Shown piece by piece: positions 8,954-18,143 of a DNA stretch of 64,000 nucleotides (its first letter is position 1; every line of letters starts with the position of its first letter). The translations under genes and the position numbers were made by a program. The notes under the pieces are model-generated. The model made no database searches. It saw only the letters and a program-made list of their open reading frames with translations, and was not told the DNA's origin. This DNA comes from Paracoccaceae bacterium (GTDB lineage: Bacteria; Pseudomonadota; Alphaproteobacteria; Rhodobacterales; Rhodobacteraceae): assembly GCA_024742405.1 (NCBI GenBank), contig JANSYP010000002.1, forward strand, positions 1 through 64,000. The letters are read 5' to 3'.

Positions 8954-9099
8954 GGCTTTTCCCTGTATCGAACTTGGCATTTTGGTTGGCGCTCCCCTAC
9001 CGGCTGGCGGGCGCAGGGGCAATGCGCGAAACCCTCTGGCTCGGACGCGGTCGCGCTGCCATGGTGCACGAAACCGATATGAACCCGGAGACGCCCGAC

Positions 9100-9546
9100 A
9101 TGCCGTCCGACGCCGAGATGCTGGAGATCGCCCTCGAGGAAGCCCGCGCCGGCGCGGACGAAGGCGGGATTCCCATTGGTGCCGCACTCTTTGTCGACGG
9201 TACCTGCGTCGCGCGCGGCCGTAACCAGCGCGTCCAGCAGGGTAGCCAGATCCTCCATGGCGAGATGTCCTGCCTGGCCAATGCCGGACGGCGCGGCGAT
9301 TTTCACCGCGCGGTACTGGCGACGACGCTGTCGCCCTGCATGATGTGTTCCGGCACGATCCTGCAATTTGCCATTCCGCGCGTGATCATAGGCGAGGCAG
9401 AGACCTTTGGCGGCAACGAGGTATTCCTGCGCGACCGCGGCGTGGCGTTGTCGATATTGAACGACGCCCGGTGCATCGCGCTGATGCGCGGCTTCATCGA
9501 CGCGCACCCGGCGCTCTGGAACGAGGACATTGGCGTGCATGACTGA
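9100..9546 (+). CDS. Cytosine/nucleoside deaminase-like protein (FCY1 type)
   Basis: This is a small zinc-dependent cytidine/deoxycytidylate deaminase superfamily enzyme. The HGEMSCL motif (HxE) and the SPCMMC motif (PCxxC) supply the zinc ligands and the proton-shuttling Glu. The sequence [20 protein letters not shown] and the length near 150 residues match the yeast cytosine deaminase type better than TadA. The start at 9100 has GGAG nine bases upstream; ATGs at 9061 and 9079 are alternatives. Exact substrate is not shown by the sequence. Confidence 0.82.
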
Positions 9547-9661
9547 ATGATCCCGGTGCCTGAGACATGACGCCCCCGATCCGCTCTTGGCACTGGCCTC
9601 GGCGCGTTCCACCCTGTAGGCGAAGGGCTTGGGAAAGACGAGTAAGGCGAGCAGCGTGCGT

Positions 9662-10462
9662 ATGAAAGACCACAAGGCCCATCCCCTGCCCGACGCCCGA
9701 GAGGATGTCGCTCGGGCAAGACATATTCCCGACACACCCCAGACCCGCTCGCCGACCCACCGCTTGGCCTTTGCCGATGACGAGTTTCTGACACGTGAGG
9801 CACTGCGCCCGGTTCGGCTGCAGCTTGAGCTTCTCAAGACGCAGTTGGCGCTGGAGGAACGCGGCATCGTCTCGACCGTGGTGATGTTCGGCGGCGCCCG
9901 CATTCCCGCGCCCGACCAGCGCCAATCCGCGCGCACCCCCGAACTGGCCGAGCTGTCGCGGTTCTACAACGAGGCGCGCCAGTTCGCCCGCATGGTCACC
10001 GAGCGTAGCGTCGCAAGCGGAAACACCGAGGACGTCATTGTTACGGGAGGAGGTCCCGGTGTGATGGAGGCCGGCAATCTCGGAGCGGCCGAGGCTGGCG
10101 GCGTGTCCATCGGTCTCAATATCGTACTGCCCCATGAACAGGCGCCTAACCTGCATGTGACGCCGGATCTGTCCTTCAACTTCCACTATTTCGCCGTGCG
10201 CAAGATGCATTTCCTGATGCGCGCGCGCGCGATCACGGTCTTTCCCGGCGGATTCGGAACGTTGGACGAGCTTTTCGAGGCTCTGACGCTGATCCAGACC
10301 AAACGCATGGACCCGGTGCCGATCCTGCTCTTCGGCGAAGCGTTCTGGCGGCGAATCGTCAACTGGGATGCCCTGGCGGAAGCCGGCACAATCTCTGCCG
10401 ACGACCTGGAGCTTTTCACTTTTGTCGAAACTGCTGAAGAAGCCGTCAAGTTTATCAGGTAA
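9662..10462 (+). CDS. LOG-family protein (TIGR00730-like)
   Basis: This is a Rossmann-like protein of the LOG (lonely guy) family, often misannotated as lysine decarboxylase. The diagnostic PGGFGTLDE motif is present, together with the phosphate-binding GGGPGVMEAGN and an Arg/Lys-containing VRKMHFLMRAR. Family members hydrolyse nucleoside 5'-monophosphates at the N-glycosidic bond. At 266 residues it belongs to the longer type with an N-terminal extension (residues 1-60). Start ATG 9662 is the first plausible one. No operon partner is evident. Confidence 0.85.
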   Translation: MKDHKAHPLPDAREDVARARHIPDTPQTRSPTHRLAFADDEFLTREALRPVRLQLELLKTQLALEERGIVSTVVMFGGARIPAPDQRQSARTPELAELSRFYNEARQFARMVTERSVASGNTEDVIVTGGGPGVMEAGNLGAAEAGGVSIGLNIVLPHEQAPNLHVTPDLSFNFHYFAVRKMHFLMRARAITVFPGGFGTLDELFEALTLIQTKRMDPVPILLFGEAFWRRIVNWDALAEAGTISADDLELFTFVETAEEAVKFIR

Positions 10463-10608
10463 TCGTCATTTTACTGTTACTTTTTAATCGGCTAGTTGAC
10501 TTAACCCAGCGTGAAGGCCACGTGTGTGCGGTGCAAGTGTTAAGGTCTTGGTAGCTTTAAGGCCTCGGTAAGACTCTTCTGTAATATTATTTCAAAAGAC
10601 AGCAGGGA

Positions 10609-11028
10609 ATGCGCATGCACAGGGTGATCTACCGCAGCAACGCATTGATCGGGGAATACACCCCCGGCGCGCTCGATATCCTTGCGACCTCCGAGCGCCG
10701 GAACCTCGAGGACGGGATCACGGGGTTCCTTCACCGCGAGGCCGACAATTTCGTTCAAGTGATCGAAGGCGACGGCCCCGCCGTGGCAGCGCTGGTGACG
10801 CGGTTGCGCGCCGATCGACGCCACGCCGGCATGACGATCCTGTCGGAACAGACGATCAGCATCCGCGCCTTTGAAAGCTGGGATATGGCCTATGCCAGCA
10901 ATCATCAGCTCAGCCTGTCTCAACGGGTTCCCGAGATCTGGGGGCGTTCATCCCTGTCCCACAGTGCCACGGACAGGCTGATCGCGTTCCTGCTGGATCT
11001 GGCCGCGCGCAAGACCCGCGCAGCCTGA
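10609..11028 (+). CDS. Short BLUF-domain blue-light sensor
   Basis: This is a 139-residue protein that is almost only a BLUF domain, an FAD-binding blue-light photoreceptor. The key residues are all visible: Tyr8 (VIYRS), Asn32 (RNLEDGITG), Gln50 (NFVQVIEG) and Trp91/Met93 (SWDMAY), corresponding to Tyr21, Asn45, Gln63, Trp104 and Met106 of AppA. No output domain follows beyond about 40 residues of helix. AGGGA precedes the ATG; a second ATG lies two codons in. It lies beside the photosynthesis segment, so a light-regulation role is possible but inferred. Confidence 0.9.
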   Translation: MRMHRVIYRSNALIGEYTPGALDILATSERRNLEDGITGFLHREADNFVQVIEGDGPAVAALVTRLRADRRHAGMTILSEQTISIRAFESWDMAYASNHQLSLSQRVPEIWGRSSLSHSATDRLIAFLLDLAARKTRAA

Positions 11029-11220
11029 GCCGGGCGGCCCAAAGAACAAGCCTTTTCCACTTCGCGCCGGCGCCGTGGCCCGAAACCGGGCTTGATGTTC
11101 CGCGCAGCGCTCAGACTGGGTGGACCTCGAACTTCATCGCAGACCGCTTCGCACCGATCCGAGCAATGGCTGGGAAGGATCAACAGCCCAAAGTGCGTAC
11201 CAACTGGCCTGCGCCTGACG

Positions 11221-11238
11221 TGCCGCCGAGCGGCGGCA
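11221..11238 (-). terminator. Hairpin downstream of dxs (possible terminator)
   Basis: TGCCGCC-GAGC-GGCGGCA forms a perfect 7-bp stem about 55 bases beyond the dxs stop. No U-run follows on the minus strand, so it may act only as a 3' stabilising hairpin. Confidence 0.35.
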
Positions 11239-11291
11239 ATGCAGTTACGTGCTCAGGAGACCACTCCGTCCGTCGCGTCTGCGGCCGAGGC

Positions 11292-13220
11292 TCAGGCCCG
11301 CAGCGCCGTGACCTTGCCTCCGCCGACGGCGGCAAAGGCCGCCTCGGCAATTCCGTTCGCGTCGAGCCCCGCGGCGCGATACATCGCGTCCGGGCTCGCG
11401 TGGTCGATGAACCGGTCGGGCAGCGTGAGCGTGCGAACCGCGAGTCCGCGATCGAGCCTGCCGGACGCAGCCAGATGGTGTAGCACCAGCGCACCGAACC
11501 CGCCCGTTGCCCCCTGTTCTACCGTGATCAGCGCACCGTGTTCCGCCACCAACCGGTCGATGAGGTCGGTGTCCAGCGGTTTCGCAAAGCGGGCGTCCGC
11601 CACAGTCGCGGTGATCCCCGCGGCCTCCAGCCGGTCGGCTGCGATCAGCACTTGGTCGAGATGCGCGCCGAAGGACAGCAGCGCCACTCCCGTGCCTTCG
11701 CGCAGAATACGGCCCTTACCGATCTCCAGCGTTTCACCGCGTTCGGGCAGTGCGACACCGGTACCGGACCCGCGCGGATAGCGGAACGCGATCGGTCCCT
11801 CGTCGAACAGCGCCGCGGTCGCCACCATATGCTTCAGCTCGGCTTCGTCGGCCGCAGCCATGACCGTGAACCCGGGCAGATTAGCCAGATAGCCAATATC
11901 GAAACTGCCGGCATGGGTTGGCCCGTCCGCACCCACGAGGCCGGCGCGGTCGATGGCAAAACGCACCGGCAACCGCTGGATCGCCACGTCGTGGACGACC
12001 TGATCATAAGCCCGCTGCAGGAAGGTCGAATAAATCGCGCAGAACGGCCTCAGCCCGCTGGCAGCCATTCCCGCGGCAAAGGTCACGGCATGCTGCTCGG
12101 CCATGCCGACGTCGAAGACGCGGGCCGGAAAGCGCTTCTGCATCCGGTCGACCCCGGTGCCCGACGGCATTGCCGCCGTCACGGCCACGACCCGCGGGTC
12201 GGCGGCCGCAGCCTCGGTCAGAGCATCGCCGAAGACTGCCGTGTAGGACGGAGCGGCGGGCTTGCTCTTCTTCTGGGCGCCTGAAGCTACGTCGAACTTC
12301 GCAACGCCGTGGTACTTGTCGGCGGAGTTCTCGGCCGGAGCATAACCCTTGCCCTTGACCGTGCAGCAATGGATCAGCACGGGGCCGGAAGCGCGGGAGC
12401 GCGCGGCCCGGAAGACCTTGAGCAGCTGGCCCATGTCGTGCCCGTCGATCGGGCCCATGTAGGAAAAGCCGAGCTCTTCGAAGAGCGTCCCGCCGCCGGG
12501 CATGCCGGTCACAAGCTGTCGCGCCCGCCGGGCGCCGTCACGCAGCGGCCCGGGCAGCGTGGACTCCCAGCTCTCGGCCATGTCTTTCAAGGGCCCGAGC
12601 GGCGTGTTGCCATAAAGCCCCGAGAGATAGGCCGACATCGCGCCGGTCGGCGGCGCGATCGACATCTCGTTGTCATTGAGGATCACAAACAGACGCCGGC
12701 CCTCGTGGCCTGCATTGTTCATCGCTTCGTAGGCCATGCCCGCGCTGATCGCGCCGTCGCCGATGACGGCAATGGCATCGCCGGTCGCCTGGCCCATATC
12801 GTGCCCCACCGCAAATCCGAGCGCGGATGAGATCGAGGTCGAGGAATGCGCCGCGCCGAAAGGATCAAACTCGCTCTCGGCCCGCTTGGTGAAGCCCGAC
12901 AGCCCGCCTTCCTGACGGATGGTGCGGATCCGGTCGCGCCGGCCGGTGAGGATCTTGTGCGGATAGCACTGGTGACCGACATCCCAGATCAGCTTGTCGC
13001 GGGGCGTGTCGAACACCGCGTGGATCGCGACGGTCATCTCCACGACACCGAGCGAGGATCCCAGATGCCCGCCGGTCTGGCTGACCGCGTCAATCAGTTC
13101 AGCCCGCAGTTCGTCGGACAATCGACCAAGCTCGGCATCGCTCAGACGGCGCAGATCGGCCGGACCGGCGACGCGGTCGAGCGTCGGAGTGTGCAGCGAA
13201 GGGGTTGCGAGCGTGTCCAT
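11292..13220 (-). CDS. dxs: 1-deoxy-D-xylulose-5-phosphate synthase
   Basis: Dxs condenses pyruvate and glyceraldehyde 3-phosphate using thiamine diphosphate, the first step of the MEP isoprenoid route. The [10 protein letters not shown] segment, the ThDP/Mg motif [18 protein letters not shown], and the transketolase pyrimidine and C-terminal domains ([12 protein letters not shown], then YPRGSG) are present in 642 residues. The start at 13220 has GGGAGG upstream. It lies directly behind pufX on the same strand, as in other phototrophic Rhodobacteraceae, so precursor supply for carotenoids and phytyl tails may be co-expressed with the puf genes. Confidence 0.96.
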
Positions 13221-13257
13221 GATGTCCTCCCGAGACAGTCGAATGGTGGTTCTCGCT

Positions 13258-13326
13258 CCTGCTGGCTTTGGGAACAGGCGCCGCGGGGATTGCGCCCCGC
13301 GGCGCCGGTCTCCTGTAGCCAGCAGG
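13258..13326 (-). terminator. Nested palindrome between pufX and dxs
   Basis: An outer 10-bp inverted repeat (CCTGCTGGCT at 13258-13267, AGCCAGCAGG at 13317-13326) encloses a perfect 12-bp inverted repeat (GGCGCCGCGGGG at 13277-13288, CCCCGCGGCGCC at 13295-13306) with a 6-base loop. The RNA would fold into one long, very GC-rich hairpin. No U-run follows, so it may attenuate or protect the puf mRNA 3' end and separate it from dxs rather than terminate fully. Confidence 0.7.
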
Positions 13327-13420
13327 AAGGGAACCGGGGCACATGGCCCCGATGCCAGACCGCCCGGGGGACGGTCCGACCAGGGTGCAGCGGGGGCGGC
13401 GGCTTGGACCGCCCGCGCGC

Positions 13421-13663
13421 TCAGGCGTGGGTCGCGGCGTCCTCGGCCGGGATCACATAGGACCACGGCGTCGGATCGGCGGCTTCTTTGCTGTCGGGCG
13501 GCAGAACCGACCCGAGCAGGATCAGAAGCCAGATGAAAACTCCGACCCCGACGAAGATGGCAGCGCCCATGGCCGCCCCCTTCCCCATGAGCCAGGCGAC
13601 TTCCAGCTGGCGTCTGTTGAACTCCGGGATCTGGAGGTCGTACTTTTTCGAGTCGTCAGACAT
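13421..13663 (-). CDS. pufX: PufX, reaction centre-LH1 core component
   Basis: PufX is the small single-helix protein that opens the LH1 ring and allows quinone exchange in Rhodobacter-type core complexes. This 80-residue product has a soluble N-terminus, a single Gly/Ala-rich helix ([18 protein letters not shown]) and the LLGSVLPP junction that matches Rhodobacter PufX in pattern (KGA, then ML/VLP). It lies 17 bases after pufM, the pufX position; pufC is absent. PufX is very divergent, so the call rests on position plus these motifs. Confidence 0.85.
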
Positions 13664-13680
13664 AGCGTGCCTTTCTCAGA

Positions 13681-14631
13681 TCAGCGGTCCAGCGGAGCGT
13701 AGTTGTGATCCTGCGCCCAGGTGTACCAGTCGTCGACAACGGTGCCGGTGATCAGGATCCCGATGCCGCCGGTCAGCGTGCAGAGCACGGCGAACCACCA
13801 GGCCCAGCGGTGGATCCCCTCCATCGTGGCGTTGAAGCCCATGGTCCAGCGCCAGAACAGCGCCGCCCGTTCCGAGGCCGTCCCGCGATCCGCGATCTGC
13901 TCAATCTCCCGGTCGCCACCGAAGCGCGACACCGCGAGGATCGTCGCCCCATGCATGGCAAAGAGTAGTGCAGAACCATAGAGGAACACGATCGAGAGCG
14001 CGTGGAACGGGTTGTAGAACAGGTTCCCGTAGGTGAGCGAGAACAGGTTCGTCCAGTCCAGATGGGTGAAGATGCCATAGGGCACCGCCTCGGACCAGGA
14101 CCCCATCAAGATCGGACGGATCAGGCCAAGCACGAGAAAGAGCCAGATTGCCGAACCGAAGGCCCAGAAAATGTGTTTGCCCATCTTCATCTGGTCAGCC
14201 AGCACCCAGCAACGCGCCCACCAGGTCAGCACCGAAATCAGCAGGAAGAAGGAGGCGATCAGCCAGCCCAAGCCCTCGCCGAGGGGCGGAATGCCGAGGC
14301 CGTACTCGGGCCCGGGCGGCTCCAGCGAGAAGTAGAACAGATCGCGCAGGAACACCGCCGGGTTGTAGCCCGCCTGGTCCCAGTAGCTGATGCCCACGAT
14401 GAAGAACCAGAGTAGCCCCGTGGCGAGCGACACCACGCCCAGACCGCCCAGATAGATCGGGCCGAGCTGCGCGTTGCCGAACCACCCGATCCAGGTCGAG
14501 TAGCCGGGCTGGCCCACGCGCTCGTCGAGATCGGCATCCTCGGCCATACCCATTTCGGGCACGCCCTGGACCTGGACCTGGGTGACGAGGTTCTGGTTCT
14601 CGGCGGTGAAGATGCTTTCATACTTAGCCAT
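13681..14631 (-). CDS. pufM: Photosynthetic reaction centre M subunit
   Basis: PufM is the membrane-embedded M chain of the type II reaction centre, binding bacteriochlorophyll, bacteriopheophytin, quinone and non-heme iron with PufL. The 316 residues contain five transmembrane helices and hallmark stretches such as [20 protein letters not shown] (His ligand to special-pair bacteriochlorophyll), [20 protein letters not shown] (iron ligand His) and [12 protein letters not shown]. The start overlaps the pufL stop by 8 bases, as in other puf operons. Confidence 0.97.
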
Positions 14632-15472
14632 TGACGCCTCCCTCGATATTTGCCCACCAAGGCAGGTTGATGTACCAGTCCCACCAGACGACCCACTGAT
14701 CGAACCAGATGGTTCCCGAAATCACGATGCAGATCGCCGACCAGAACCCGGCATTCAGCGCCAGCAACAGGCCGATCCGGTGGATGCCCAGCGTACCGAC
14801 CGAGTAGCCGATATAGTCGCGGAAATAGGTGTCCTCGTGATCGGGGGTCTTCATCTCGGTGCCCTTCTTGGGGTTCACCGCCGACAGGATGAGGCCGCCA
14901 TGGAGGGCGAGCGCCAGCGTCGTGGTGAAGAAGAAGGTGATCGCGATCATATGCGCCGGATTGTAATGGAAGTTCCCGTAGGCGTAGCCGACGTTGCTGA
15001 CCCAATCGAGGTGGCTCCAGATCCCGTAGGGGAACCCATGACCCCAGGCGCCCATCAGAACGGGCCGGATCACGACCAGCGTGGTGTAGGCAAAGATCGC
15101 GACGCTGAAGGCGAAGGGCACGTGATAGCCCATGCCGAGCTTGCGGCAGATCTCGACCTCACGCAGGGCCCAGCTGATGAAGGCACCGTGGGCGCAGATC
15201 GTGATGATCTGCCACAGCCCGCCCTCGCGGAGCGGCGCCATGCCCAGCCCGTATTCCAGCGGCGGCGGATCGATCGAGATGAGCCAGGGGTTCCATTCGC
15301 CCTGCATCGAAGCGCCCCAGAAGATGAGGATCGTGCCAAGTGCGGCGAAGAACAGCGTCGTGACGCCGAAGAATCCGACAAAGAACGGCCCGACCCAGAA
15401 ATCGAACAAGTCGCCGCCGATGAGCGTGCCCCCCGGCACGCGGTATTTTCGTTCGAAGCTGAGCAGTGCCAT
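14624..15472 (-). CDS. pufL: Photosynthetic reaction centre L subunit
   Basis: PufL is the L chain, partner of PufM, in the inner membrane. It begins [20 protein letters not shown], the highly conserved L N-terminus, and has [40 protein letters not shown] (special-pair His) and [14 protein letters not shown] (iron ligand His). Length 282 is exact for the family. It follows pufA after about 110 bases containing a stem-loop, the arrangement that makes the pufBA segment outlast pufLM in known operons. Confidence 0.97.
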
Positions 15473-15544
15473 ACTTCAACCCTCGCTATGGCCCCTCGTG
15501 CCGGCGTGCATGCGGCGCAAAGGATCGGTGAAATAAGAGGATCG

Positions 15545-15572
15545 CCTCGGGCGACTGGGTTGCCGCCCGGGG
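15545..15572 (-). promoter_or_regulatory. pufA-pufL intercistronic hairpin
   Basis: CCTCGGGCG (15545-15553) and CGCCCGGGG (15564-15572) form a GC-rich stem with a single bulge and a 10-base loop, starting about 14 bases after the pufA stop. In Rhodobacter such hairpins block 3' exonucleases and raise antenna over reaction-centre mRNA levels. Confidence 0.65.
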
Positions 15573-15585
15573 CTGTTGGTGTGGA

Positions 15586-15765
15586 TTACTCTTCCACGAT
15601 CACTTCTGTGCCGTACTTGGCCTCCGCCACGTCGAACCAGTTGTAGCGCTCGGTGCTGAGCAGAACGAGGTGGATCATCGCTGCCAGCAGGAAGAGAAAA
15701 ACCCCCTGGGCCACGAAAACGCGGCGGGGATCGAAGACGAGCCAGACCTTGTAGAATTTTTGCAT
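15586..15765 (-). CDS. pufA: Light-harvesting 1 alpha polypeptide
   Basis: This 59-residue antenna polypeptide begins [20 protein letters not shown], the standard LH1 alpha start. A single helix follows with the bacteriochlorophyll-ligand histidine in [21 protein letters not shown] ribosome site overlaps the end of the pufB coding region, and the gene ends at TAA. It is co-transcribed with pufB, and its product pairs with PufB around the reaction centre. Confidence 0.95.
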
Positions 15766-15779
15766 CTGTCAGATCTCCT

Positions 15780-15929
15780 TCAGAACCACGGGCGCCAGAT
15801 CAGCACCGCCAGGTGGGCAACAAGCGCCACGGCGACGAAGAGCCAGAGACCGCTCATATAGACGGCATGCAGTTCTTGCGCCTGCTCGTCGGTAAGGCCT
15901 GTGAAGGACAGACCAGTGTTTTCAGCCAT
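15780..15929 (-). CDS. pufB: Light-harvesting 1 beta polypeptide
   Basis: This 49-residue product has an N-terminal soluble stretch ([20 protein letters not shown]), a single helix and the [12 protein letters not shown] ending in which His binds bacteriochlorophyll. A strong GGAGG site precedes the ATG at 15929. It lies 14 bases before pufA. A hairpin-rich gap separates it from pufQ. Confidence 0.95.
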
Positions 15930-16013
15930 TTAACTTTCCTCCGGAAACATGGACTGACGCCGCGGGACCCCCGCGACAGGGCAGACCGGCCGGGCGCGAG
16001 CCCCGCCGGGTAT

Positions 16014-16033
16014 CCGTCCCCTCCGGGGGACGG
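16014..16033 (-). promoter_or_regulatory. pufQ-pufB intercistronic hairpin
   Basis: CCGTCCCC (16014-16021) and GGGGACGG (16026-16033) form a perfect 8-bp stem with a 4-base loop. A second, 6-bp stem (CGCGGG/CCCGCG) lies at 15961-15975, nearer to pufB. The pair sits where the puf transcript is processed upstream of pufB in relatives, so a 5' stabilising role is likely. Confidence 0.5.
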
Positions 16034-16064
16034 GACGGATTTCGGTCGACCGGCGTCACCGCGC

Positions 16065-16310
16065 TCAGGCCGTAAAGATCATCGGCGTGATGATCCGTGC
16101 CTGGGACCAGGCTTTGCTGATCGGGTCTTTTTCGGGCAAGCGCATCTGACGTGCGGCGGACAGGGTCCAGGTCACGAAAGCCAAGGGCAGCGTCGCCACG
16201 AAGATGATGGCGAAGTACGCATAGAACTCCCGCCGCGGCGGCTTGTGGCTTCGCATCGAAGAGGCCGCACGAATGTCGTTGAGCATCTCGTCTGAAGTAT
16301 GATCGGTCAT
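16065..16310 (-). CDS. pufQ: PufQ, bacteriochlorophyll-associated regulatory protein
   Basis: PufQ is a small membrane protein at the start of puf operons, needed for normal bacteriochlorophyll production. The 81-residue product has one hydrophobic helix (YAYFAIIFVATLPLAFVTW) and the conserved tail KDPISKAWSQARIITPMIF, matching the FARAWREAGEITPEIF pattern of Rhodobacter PufQ. The ATG at 16310 overlaps the stop of the 89-aa gene upstream (TGATG), so the two are translationally coupled. Confidence 0.85.
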   Translation of the reverse strand: MTDHTSDEMLNDIRAASSMRSHKPPRREFYAYFAIIFVATLPLAFVTWTLSAARQMRLPEKDPISKAWSQARIITPMIFTA

Positions 16311-16579
16311 CAGCGGGTCTCTCCTTCGGTGGTGATCCTTGCGAGCTCGGCGATCTGAGCGCGCAAAACGGTTTCGGTAACGGTTGGATATTGCTGGTTC
16401 CGGGCGGCGGTTTCGGCGCGGCGGCGCAACCGGCGGGCTTGAACGCCCATCTCGTCTGCCGACAGGCCGGTGAGATAGATGGCCATGAGGGCCCGCGCGC
16501 CGTCGGACCAGGCGAGGGGCGCAGCTTTCGTCAGACCGCACGCGGCCCCGTTCGCATCGCGGAGGAACGGATCCTTCAT
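16310..16579 (-). CDS. Unknown 89-aa protein between bchZ and pufQ
   Basis: The product begins MKDPFLRDANGAACGLTKAA and ends AELARITTEGETR. It is soluble, Arg/Ala-rich and probably mostly helical (LSADEMGVQARRLRRRAETA), with a single Cys and no membrane segment. I do not recognise the family. It begins about 100 bases after bchZ and its stop overlaps the pufQ start by one base, so it is very likely translated as part of the superoperon. A role in pigment-protein assembly or regulation is only suggested by position. Confidence 0.65.
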   Translation of the reverse strand: MKDPFLRDANGAACGLTKAAPLAWSDGARALMAIYLTGLSADEMGVQARRLRRRAETAARNQQYPTVTETVLRAQIAELARITTEGETR

Positions 16580-16676
16580 GCTGCCGACCCTCCGGTGATT
16601 GCAGTCGGTCCGGGCGTTTGCCTGGCGCCGGTTGGAACCGGGGGCAACCCACGGCGGTATGCGGCCACGACCCGCA

Positions 16677-18143
16677 TCAGGCCTCCACCTCGAAACCTGC
16701 GGGCGCGAGCCTGCGCACGGTGTCGATCTGGACCCGCTCCGCGCCGGCCTCCAGCGCACGTTTTTCCGCCTCGTCGCGTAGCGTTTTCGCCGCCGAGATG
16801 CGGGTCAGCACCGGGTGCTCGGCCACGATCCGGTCGAGCAGGCGTTGCGCATCATCATCCCAGGGGAAGTCGCGGCGGAGCGTCGTCGGTGTCGCCTCGG
16901 CACTGTCCATCTCGGAGCCCAGCGGCAGGATGTGGAAGAGCGCGTCGAAGAGCCCGTTGCACACCTCCTGCAAGAGGTAGGTGGCCCCCGCGTAGCCCAT
17001 GAAGGGCGTGCCCGTGGCTCGGCGGATCGCGGCGCCGGGAAAGGAGGCGGGGATGAATGCGGGCTTCGGTCCATGCCCTGCCGCCATCTCCGCGAGATAC
17101 ATCTTTTCGTTGATCGACCCCATGACGATGAGCGGCCGCTTGGCGTGGATCTCGGCGCGGACGGTGTCGTTGTCGGTCTTGCGCCCGGCGACCCTTGCGG
17201 TGGCCAGTGCGCAAGGCAGCCCCAGATCGCTCTCGAGGAAATGCCGGATGCCGCGGGCATAGGTCTCGTTGGCGACCACGGCAAAGCTCGCGGTGGCAAA
17301 GAAATCCTGGGTGACGGAGCGCCAGAGATCCCAGACCGGTTTGATGGTCGAGTGCTTCTCGGTGGCGATGAAAGGCTCGGGATCGAGTCCGGTCAGCTCG
17401 CCCAGTTTACGCAGGAACTTCGTCGTGCTGTCGATGCCGATGGGGGCCTGAAGATAAGGCTTTCCAAGGACTTCCGCGAGGCCGCGGCCGAATTCGCGGT
17501 ACATGCAGATGTTCACATCGGCATTCACGAGGTTGCGCATCTCGGCCAGATGGGCACCCAGCGGCATGACCATGTTGACCTCGGCGCCGATGCCTTCGAC
17601 GAGACGGCGGATCTCGGCCAGATCGGAGGGCATGTTGAAGGTGCCGTACATCGGACCGAGGACATTGACCCGCGGTTTGGCCCCCTCGGGACGCTTTTTC
17701 TCGGGGGGCATCCTACCCTTGGTCTGGCCGAACTCGGTGAAGAGCCATGTCATCGCCCGGTCGGCGGCTTCCCACTGGTCCTCGTCAATGGTGCGCGGCA
17801 AAAAGCGTTGGATATTCGTACCTTGCGGGGTCACCCCGCCGCCGATCATCTCGGCGATGGAGCCGGTGACGACGACCGCGGGCAGCGCCGGATCCAGCGT
17901 CTTCCAGGCGCGTTTCATGGCGCCTTCGGTACCGTCGCGGCCAAGCTCTTCTTCGCCCAGCCCCGTGGTCACGATGGGCAGCTCATGGGGCGGCAGCGCG
18001 TCGGTATAGTGCAGGACGCTCGTCACCGGCAGGTTCTCGCAGCCCACCGGACCGTCGATGACAACCTGCAGACCCTTGACCGCTGTGAAGGCGTAAACCG
18101 CCCCCCAATAGCCCCCGGCCCGGTCATGATCCTGGATCAGCAT
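16677..18143 (-). CDS. bchZ: Chlorophyllide a reductase subunit Z
   Basis: BchZ and BchY form the catalytic component of the nitrogenase-like chlorophyllide a oxidoreductase, which reduces ring B to give the bacteriochlorin. The start at 18143 gives [20 protein letters not shown], the conserved BchZ N-terminus, with GGGAGG upstream; a longer start at 18179 is unlikely. Cluster-binding Cys occurs in [11 protein letters not shown], and the protein is 488 residues long as expected. It follows bchY after 112 bases. Confidence 0.96.

Follow-up and report, generated by a model that had tools for sequence, protein, structure and literature searches.

The long hairpin between pufX and dxs in the window (the whole 64,000-nt stretch of DNA analysed) is probably the 3'-end element of the puf mRNA, a counterpart of the PcrX locus of R. 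sphaeroides, in a lineage-specific closed form that would mainly provide a stable or processed end. This assignment draws on the anatomy of the hairpin, on the conserved element that it contains, on the occurrence of this element without pufX and without dxs, on the covariation of paired bases and on a tree of the flanking genes in which closure has a second origin. Roles as a 3' boundary, in termination, in processing or as an sRNA are those that we infer from these features.

Gene context and fold of the hairpin

On the minus strand of the window, pufL, pufM and pufX are followed by a 200-nt gap with one long hairpin and then by dxs. On the strand of the puf genes, the hairpin directly follows the last of them. 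The palindrome that the sequence-only reading had placed between pufX and dxs is real: both of its repeats are present, and the gene order is given by matches to PF11511 and PF13292. The features of the region are:

11292 to 13220, minus strand: dxs (1-deoxy-D-xylulose-5-phosphate synthase), PF13292 with E 4.1e-109; ATG at 13220
13226 to 13231, minus strand: GGGAGG, lying outside the hairpin and probably the ribosome-binding site of dxs (read off the sequence)
13248 to 13335, minus strand: the whole closed hairpin, folding at -66.3 kcal/mol for 90 nt
13248 to 13267, minus strand: 3' arm that closes the rod, AGCCAGCAGGAGCGAGAACC; it copies the conserved core imperfectly and in inverted orientation (repeats, fold)
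13270 to 13276, minus strand: TGTTCCC, at the U-tract position; T-score 1.8, with a median of 4.1 in 96 relatives
13277 to 13306, minus strand: inner stem-loop GGCGCCGCGGGG-CGCAAT-CCCCGCGGCGCC, the counterpart of the terminator stem of relatives (repeats, fold)
13312 to 13326, minus strand: CCTGCTGGCTACAGG, the conserved 15-nt core (within the match to model R1 at 13269-13336, E 2.0e-15)
13327 to 13335, minus strand: GGTTCCCTT, the upstream part of the conserved core, of the open type (alignment A2)
13421 to 13663, minus strand: pufX, here the last gene of the puf operon, after pufL and pufM; PF11511 with E 2.8e-8

The RNA fold of the minus strand is one rod of 35 pairs (13248-13335), in which a GGUUCC helix is followed by a 12-pair outer helix, two short helices and a 12-pair inner helix. 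The hairpin had been described as a nested perfect palindrome with a 10-bp outer repeat from 13258 and a 12-bp inner one. The inner repeat is exactly that, a perfect match of 12 bp around a 6-nt loop (13277-13288 and 13295-13306). The outer repeat, which falls in the 12-pair outer helix, does exist, but it starts at 13257 and is complementary at 11 of 11 positions (13257-13267 and 13317-13327). 'Perfect' holds for each arm and not for the whole rod, which is interrupted by small internal loops and bulges. The outermost helix, GGUUCC / G-GAACC, had gone unmentioned; it stretches the rod to 13248-13335.

Calculated folding energies confirmed the unusual stability that had been proposed. The plus strand folds at -73.4 kcal/mol against -46.2 +/- 3.8 for shuffled sequences (z -7.2, 0 of 200 shuffles as low), and the minus strand with its flanks gives z -6.5, again with 0 of 200 shuffles. 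In a scan of the plus strand across the 64 kb (100-nt windows, step 10), the hairpin has the lowest energy of 6391 windows (-74.5; mean -36.4, sd 7.7). By our own hairpin measure, no other single hairpin among 121 distinct pufX-dxs junctions is as stable. The first 63 nt of the closed rod alone fold open, at -39.1 kcal/mol.

The hairpin DNA is found at a single place in the 5.02-Mb genome, and a dispersed palindromic repeat of the REP type was rejected on this ground. The exact core pattern CCTGYTGGCNACAGG likewise occurs once in the genome; with up to two mismatches it occurs at 103 places, versus 82 for the reversed pattern. At the gathering score, Rfam models gave no match to the hairpin, and their sole match in the window is a tRNA gene elsewhere, at 2673-2756 on the minus strand.

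The rod ends 27 nt before the dxs ATG, which leaves little room for a separate promoter; read-through control of dxs is thus possible in this genome. A scan of positions 9000-17000 for sigma-70-like promoters, the one type covered, found 0 sites where 1.2 were expected. The genome has a second dxs (G000:C3:276512-278389), 69% identical to the puf-linked one.

A conserved element at the 3' end of puf

Loci of relatives were collected by PufX matches (94 genomes, with the matches in G016, G175 and G409 left out of the fetched loci) and by PufM matches, for which the best 80 of 585 relatives served as a sample. Many genomes appear twice among the resulting 177 oriented loci. In 140 of the 177, duplicates included, dxs lies downstream of puf with pufX, which yielded 121 distinct junctions including that of the window.

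In the element, a near-invariant GGTTCCCTTCCTGTTGGC[T/G]ACAGG is followed by a GC stem and, in most cases, by a U-tract. The core CCTGTTGGCTACAGG or a near form of it is present in 109 of the 121 junctions (46 exact, 49 with one, 12 with two and 2 with three substitutions), mostly with GGTTCCCTT before it and a GC stem and T-run after it. The end of the stem lies a median of 25 nt upstream of dxs in the 96 open-type junctions. Twelve junctions lack the 15-nt core at up to four substitutions; by eye, eight of these retain TCCCT(T)CCTG and a small stem, and four do not (L058, L105, L154 and L164).

Of the 96 open-type junctions that bear the core, 68 were selected for diversity and make up alignment A2; the window is not one of its rows. 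The core is near-invariant in A2, in part because the rows of alignments A1 to A3 were picked by it. Twelve of the 16 consensus pairs, which make up the whole terminator stem, have in some sequences changed on both sides yet stayed paired; the four pairs of the small hairpin never vary. The covariance model R1, which was built without the window, matches the window hairpin at 72.1 bits (E 2.0e-15), and the hairpin therefore belongs to this puf 3'-end element. The plus strand at 13247-13314 also matches R1, with E 3.9e-4.

By eye, several loci have neither a good T-run nor a closing arm. These are the open-type junctions L087, L127, L117 and L139; a good T-run is also missing from the pufC loci L244, L246, L253, L254, L255, L257, L258, L264 and L267. 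A U-tract can thus be lost without closure having to follow, and such loss is not rare.

Distribution with pufX, with pufC and without dxs

R1 matched 123 of 394 genomes of the family; this and the other multi-genome model searches were run with stricter filters. By R1 or R2, the model of the closed form, the element was detected in 123 of the 166 Rhodobacteraceae genomes with reaction-centre genes versus 6 of the 228 without them, and those six matches are weak (E 2.5e-4 or worse). It is present in 80 of 93 PufX genomes and in 43 of 73 PufX-less reaction-centre genomes. R1 and R2 gave no match in 43 of the 166 reaction-centre genomes (13 of 93 with PufX and 30 of 73 without). Across 318 genomes of the class, R1 matched two, both inside the family.

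We read the gene context of 44 loci, from 41 of the 43 PufX-less matched genomes and from three of the 80 matched PufX genomes, G320, G372 and G409. G320 and G409 match at a pufC locus, and the match of G372 is on a contig that starts after puf. The pair pufM-pufC is found at 43 of the 44 loci, 42 of them with dxs downstream. L263 has pufM-pufC and no dxs in the stretch covered; L266 begins after the puf genes, and dxs is present. The core was found by pattern at 41 of the 44 loci, L260 to L262 being those where it was not. Annotated genomes show the same arrangements, with the order pufC-element-dxs in Roseobacter litoralis, Thalassococcus sp. S3, R. ponti and Tateyamaria omphalii, and pufX-element-dxs in Roseinatronobacter sp. 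S2. Two genomes, G320 (L247, L289) and G218 (L161, L288), have a pufX-type locus and a pufM-pufC-dxs locus on another contig, possibly through contamination of the assemblies. G083 and G190 likewise have four reaction-centre matches.

At 20 of the collected loci, there was no dxs hit. L060 was set aside from this group; it has a strong element match and a weak dxs match at the end of its contig, which suggests that its dxs may begin there. Strong R1 matches (E 7e-15 or better) were obtained at five of the 20 loci (L104, L141, L144, L148 and L171), all of which have pufX and no Dxs found by tblastn in the 2-4 kb stretch. L115 has a weaker match (6.8e-6) and L094 a poor one (0.011). R1 did not match the other 13, among which L052 and L064 end soon after pufM. 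The element is thus kept less often at such loci, since a strong match is lacking at 15 of the 20.

Either pufX or pufC can precede the element, and at five loci it is present with no dxs found; it therefore belongs to the puf message and not to dxs. For the same reason, setting the ratio of puf to dxs mRNA, the role suggested in the sequence-only reading, cannot be its general function. Genomes that lack pufX keep the core as well, so this gene is probably not the sole reason for its conservation.

Closed form and its origin

In the window, TGTTCCC takes the place of the T-run, and an inverted copy of the core then closes the element, the closing arm being an imperfect inverted copy of GGTTCCCTTCCTGCTGGCT. 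The same closed plan was found in twelve other junctions, all from one roseobacter clade, and on three annotated Sulfitobacter plasmids. A typical sequence of the closed clade is CCTGTTGGCTACGGG ... TTCCCGAGCCAACAGG. As in that clade, the distal arm of the window hairpin is complementary to the core.

Over the 16 closed sequences, window included, 94.6% of the cells are paired, versus 40-51% in slid controls. A comparison of the paired bases among relatives had been proposed as a check of the hairpin, and in it the pairs do covary: 10 of the 23 pairs of the closed form have changed on both sides. The outer helix alone is 95.8% paired versus 22-51% in slid controls, with modest statistics (two double-sided pairs; 33 of 500 shuffles reach its covariation score and 45 of 500 its share of paired cells).

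R2 matched 8 of the 394 family genomes, namely the window, five known closed forms and two weak matches. With the held-out model R3, built without the window, the window scores 45.3 bits and the best of 40 other loci (39 of the 96 open-type junctions and L187) 18.1 bits. The threshold for the distal arm is also passed by four open-type loci (L013, L024, L059 and L167), and the high arm score of L175 is due to G-U pairs.

Trees of Dxs and PufM, from which the Sulfitobacter plasmids were left out, place the twelve closed junctions in one clade together with L105, and the window elsewhere, beside the open L062 and L107. In a 65-row tree, the window group has support values of 96/94 and the closed clade of 99/90, and the closed forms are united in 0 of 200 bootstrap trees. 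L105, inside the closed clade, has a plain terminator and no core. The closed form is found in one genome only of the window's lineage, so that the covariation applies to the 16 closed sequences together and not to that lineage by itself. The 5' half of the window hairpin keeps the open-type GGTTCCCTT, which is missing from the closed clade. Two independent origins of closure are the simplest reading, because the flanking-gene trees separate the window from the closed clade; recombination of the gap alone is the alternative.

In the closed clade, the core is at most junctions preceded by CYGACA-like letters, where the others have GGTTCCC. In L188 to L190, these letters pair by eye with an upstream GTCAG or GTCGG, possibly forming an extra hairpin. 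In the sister group of the closed clade, L087 and L127 have lost the T-run and have no closing arm, perhaps an intermediate state, and the third locus, L031, has kept its T-run.

Termination, processing and alternative explanations

In most relatives, the element has the core with its small hairpin, followed by a stem resembling an intrinsic terminator and by a U-tract. In the window, the U-tract would have decayed, and the downstream inverted copy would zip the core, the small hairpin and the terminator stem into one rod. Most probably, this rod continues to set and shield the puf mRNA 3' end, and it would serve less as a clean intrinsic terminator than as a block to 3'-5' exonucleases or a site of processing. 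Termination would be weakened or replaced: the puf boundary would act in part as a terminator and chiefly as a processing rod or a very stable end. Closure would also lock or hide the core, which would be exposed in a PcrX-like RNA. The position of the hairpin at the end of the puf message, as claimed at the outset, is likely, given that the terminator-like stem of relatives lies at the same place, that the R. sphaeroides counterpart yields PcrX and that paired bases covary; sequence alone is no proof of it.

Terminators were scored by a formula of the d'Aubenton-Carafa type. The score is positive in 74 of the 96 open junctions versus 0 of the 12 closed-clade junctions. The window hairpin, a GC-rich stem-loop at the puf end, scores +9.6 because its stem is so stable, and may therefore terminate transcription; it was not listed in a terminator scan of the window. 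In both closed lineages, closure accompanies a poor U-tract.

It is conceivable that the hairpin is a plain intrinsic terminator of puf, in which the stable inner stem and UGUU would suffice and the closing arm would be incidental. The inner stem and its position agree with the terminators of relatives, the score is positive, and TGTT has three T in four. Nevertheless, the T-score is below the median of the relatives, a terminator needs no 20-nt closing arm, and a like arm recurs in another clade in which all 12 stems tested score negative; we hold this explanation to be tenable but somewhat doubtful. A little less credible is an RNase III site in a puf-dxs co-transcript, where cleavage of the rod would protect the 3' end of puf and free the 5' end of dxs; these two are the leading rivals. 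A single rod of 35 pairs, its closeness to the dxs ATG and the empty promoter scan would suit such a site, but internal loops break up the rod, the scan dealt with one promoter type for which few chance hits are expected, and the genome carries another dxs.

That hairpin strength would act as a read-through valve, setting the share of puf transcription that reaches dxs, was the idea of the sequence-only reading. The short distance from the stem to dxs in the 96 open-type junctions and the presence of dxs behind most puf loci speak for it. We consider it unlikely, since at five loci the element follows pufX with no dxs found, the junctions differ widely in hairpin strength, and the window's own genome has its second dxs. 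To the same degree, we doubt that the closing arm is a functionless mutational by-product, in which a template switch at an existing hairpin would have reverse-copied the core: the 3' arm copies the core almost exactly in inverted form and occurs in one genome of its lineage, but a like closure with compensating changes exists in another clade (15 sequences), and the poor U-tract goes with closure in both lineages. A DNA-level operator, with the dyad CCTGT-N5-ACAGG bound by a regulator of dxs, is highly improbable. Among the 68 rows of A2, themselves selected by the dyad, it is near-invariant, but the invariance also takes in asymmetric parts (GTTCCC, TGGC), the stems behind the dyad covary as RNA pairs, and the element is kept at loci where no dxs was found.

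Relation to PcrX and other known systems

The preferred reading, a puf 3'-end element in closed form, can be set against three known systems. An intrinsic (Rho-independent) terminator resembles the window hairpin in being a GC-rich stem-loop where an operon ends; the window differs by its degenerate U-tract, the conserved sequence upstream of the stem and the extra closing arm. In R. capsulatus, the intercistronic hairpin between pufA and pufL affects the decay of mRNA segments. It is also a puf hairpin, likened here by description only, and its position differs from that in the window.

The PcrX sRNA of the R. sphaeroides puf operon was reportedly described by Eisenhardt et al. in 2018. According to three papers, the puf 3'UTR of this species yields PcrX (PMC9438474, PMC8625941, PMC8307010), and one of them states that PcrX is released by RNase E, depends on Hfq and acts on the puf mRNA (PMC9438474). 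PMC6238624 places an R. sphaeroides RNase E site at 1,982,393, in the 5' portion of pufL. In G076, pufX lies at 1980431-1980631 and the element at 1980236-1980301, coordinates that, set against this site, fit G076 being R. sphaeroides 2.4.1. PcrX would then span the conserved core. The PcrX locus and the window have in common a 3'UTR behind pufX. The R. sphaeroides element is nevertheless open and of the terminator type, with TTTT behind the stem (L011), whereas that of the window is closed by the inverted copy and has no clear T-run; PcrX is an sRNA in R. sphaeroides, whereas the window element is known here from sequence alone.

The literature passages searched, from a coverage outside which most subscription papers fall, make no mention of PcrX conservation in other genera. 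On the puf-dxs junction, no paper with both puf and dxs was found in the same coverage. Both results are weak evidence of absence. In the literature covered, PcrX is described from R. sphaeroides only, and the core is now found at puf ends across the family. It occurs with pufC as well as with pufX, and at some loci without dxs, which makes it improbable that the RNA targets pufX alone. The binding partner of the RNA thus becomes a testable question in many strains, including aerobic phototrophs, in which, according to a review (PMC12654162), sRNAs and regulators of a similar kind known from purple non-sulfur bacteria are likely involved and current work is limited. The same source proposes that pufX may have replaced pufC (PMC12654162), in which case the element would predate the replacement. 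The closed variants are natural experiments, with the same element, a paired core and a poor U-tract. A bolder and rather unlikely extension would be that an undescribed family-wide puf 3'-end RNA, a PcrX family, outlived the replacement of pufC by pufX, and that two lineages independently locked it onto itself by a reverse copy of the core, trading the U-tract for the arm and switching off the trans-acting core.

Lastly, pairing between the core and pufX was tested. A peak near pufX +60 to +80 is present in 24 of the 96 open-type loci, among which the window does not figure, and 5 of 40 shuffled motifs perform as well.
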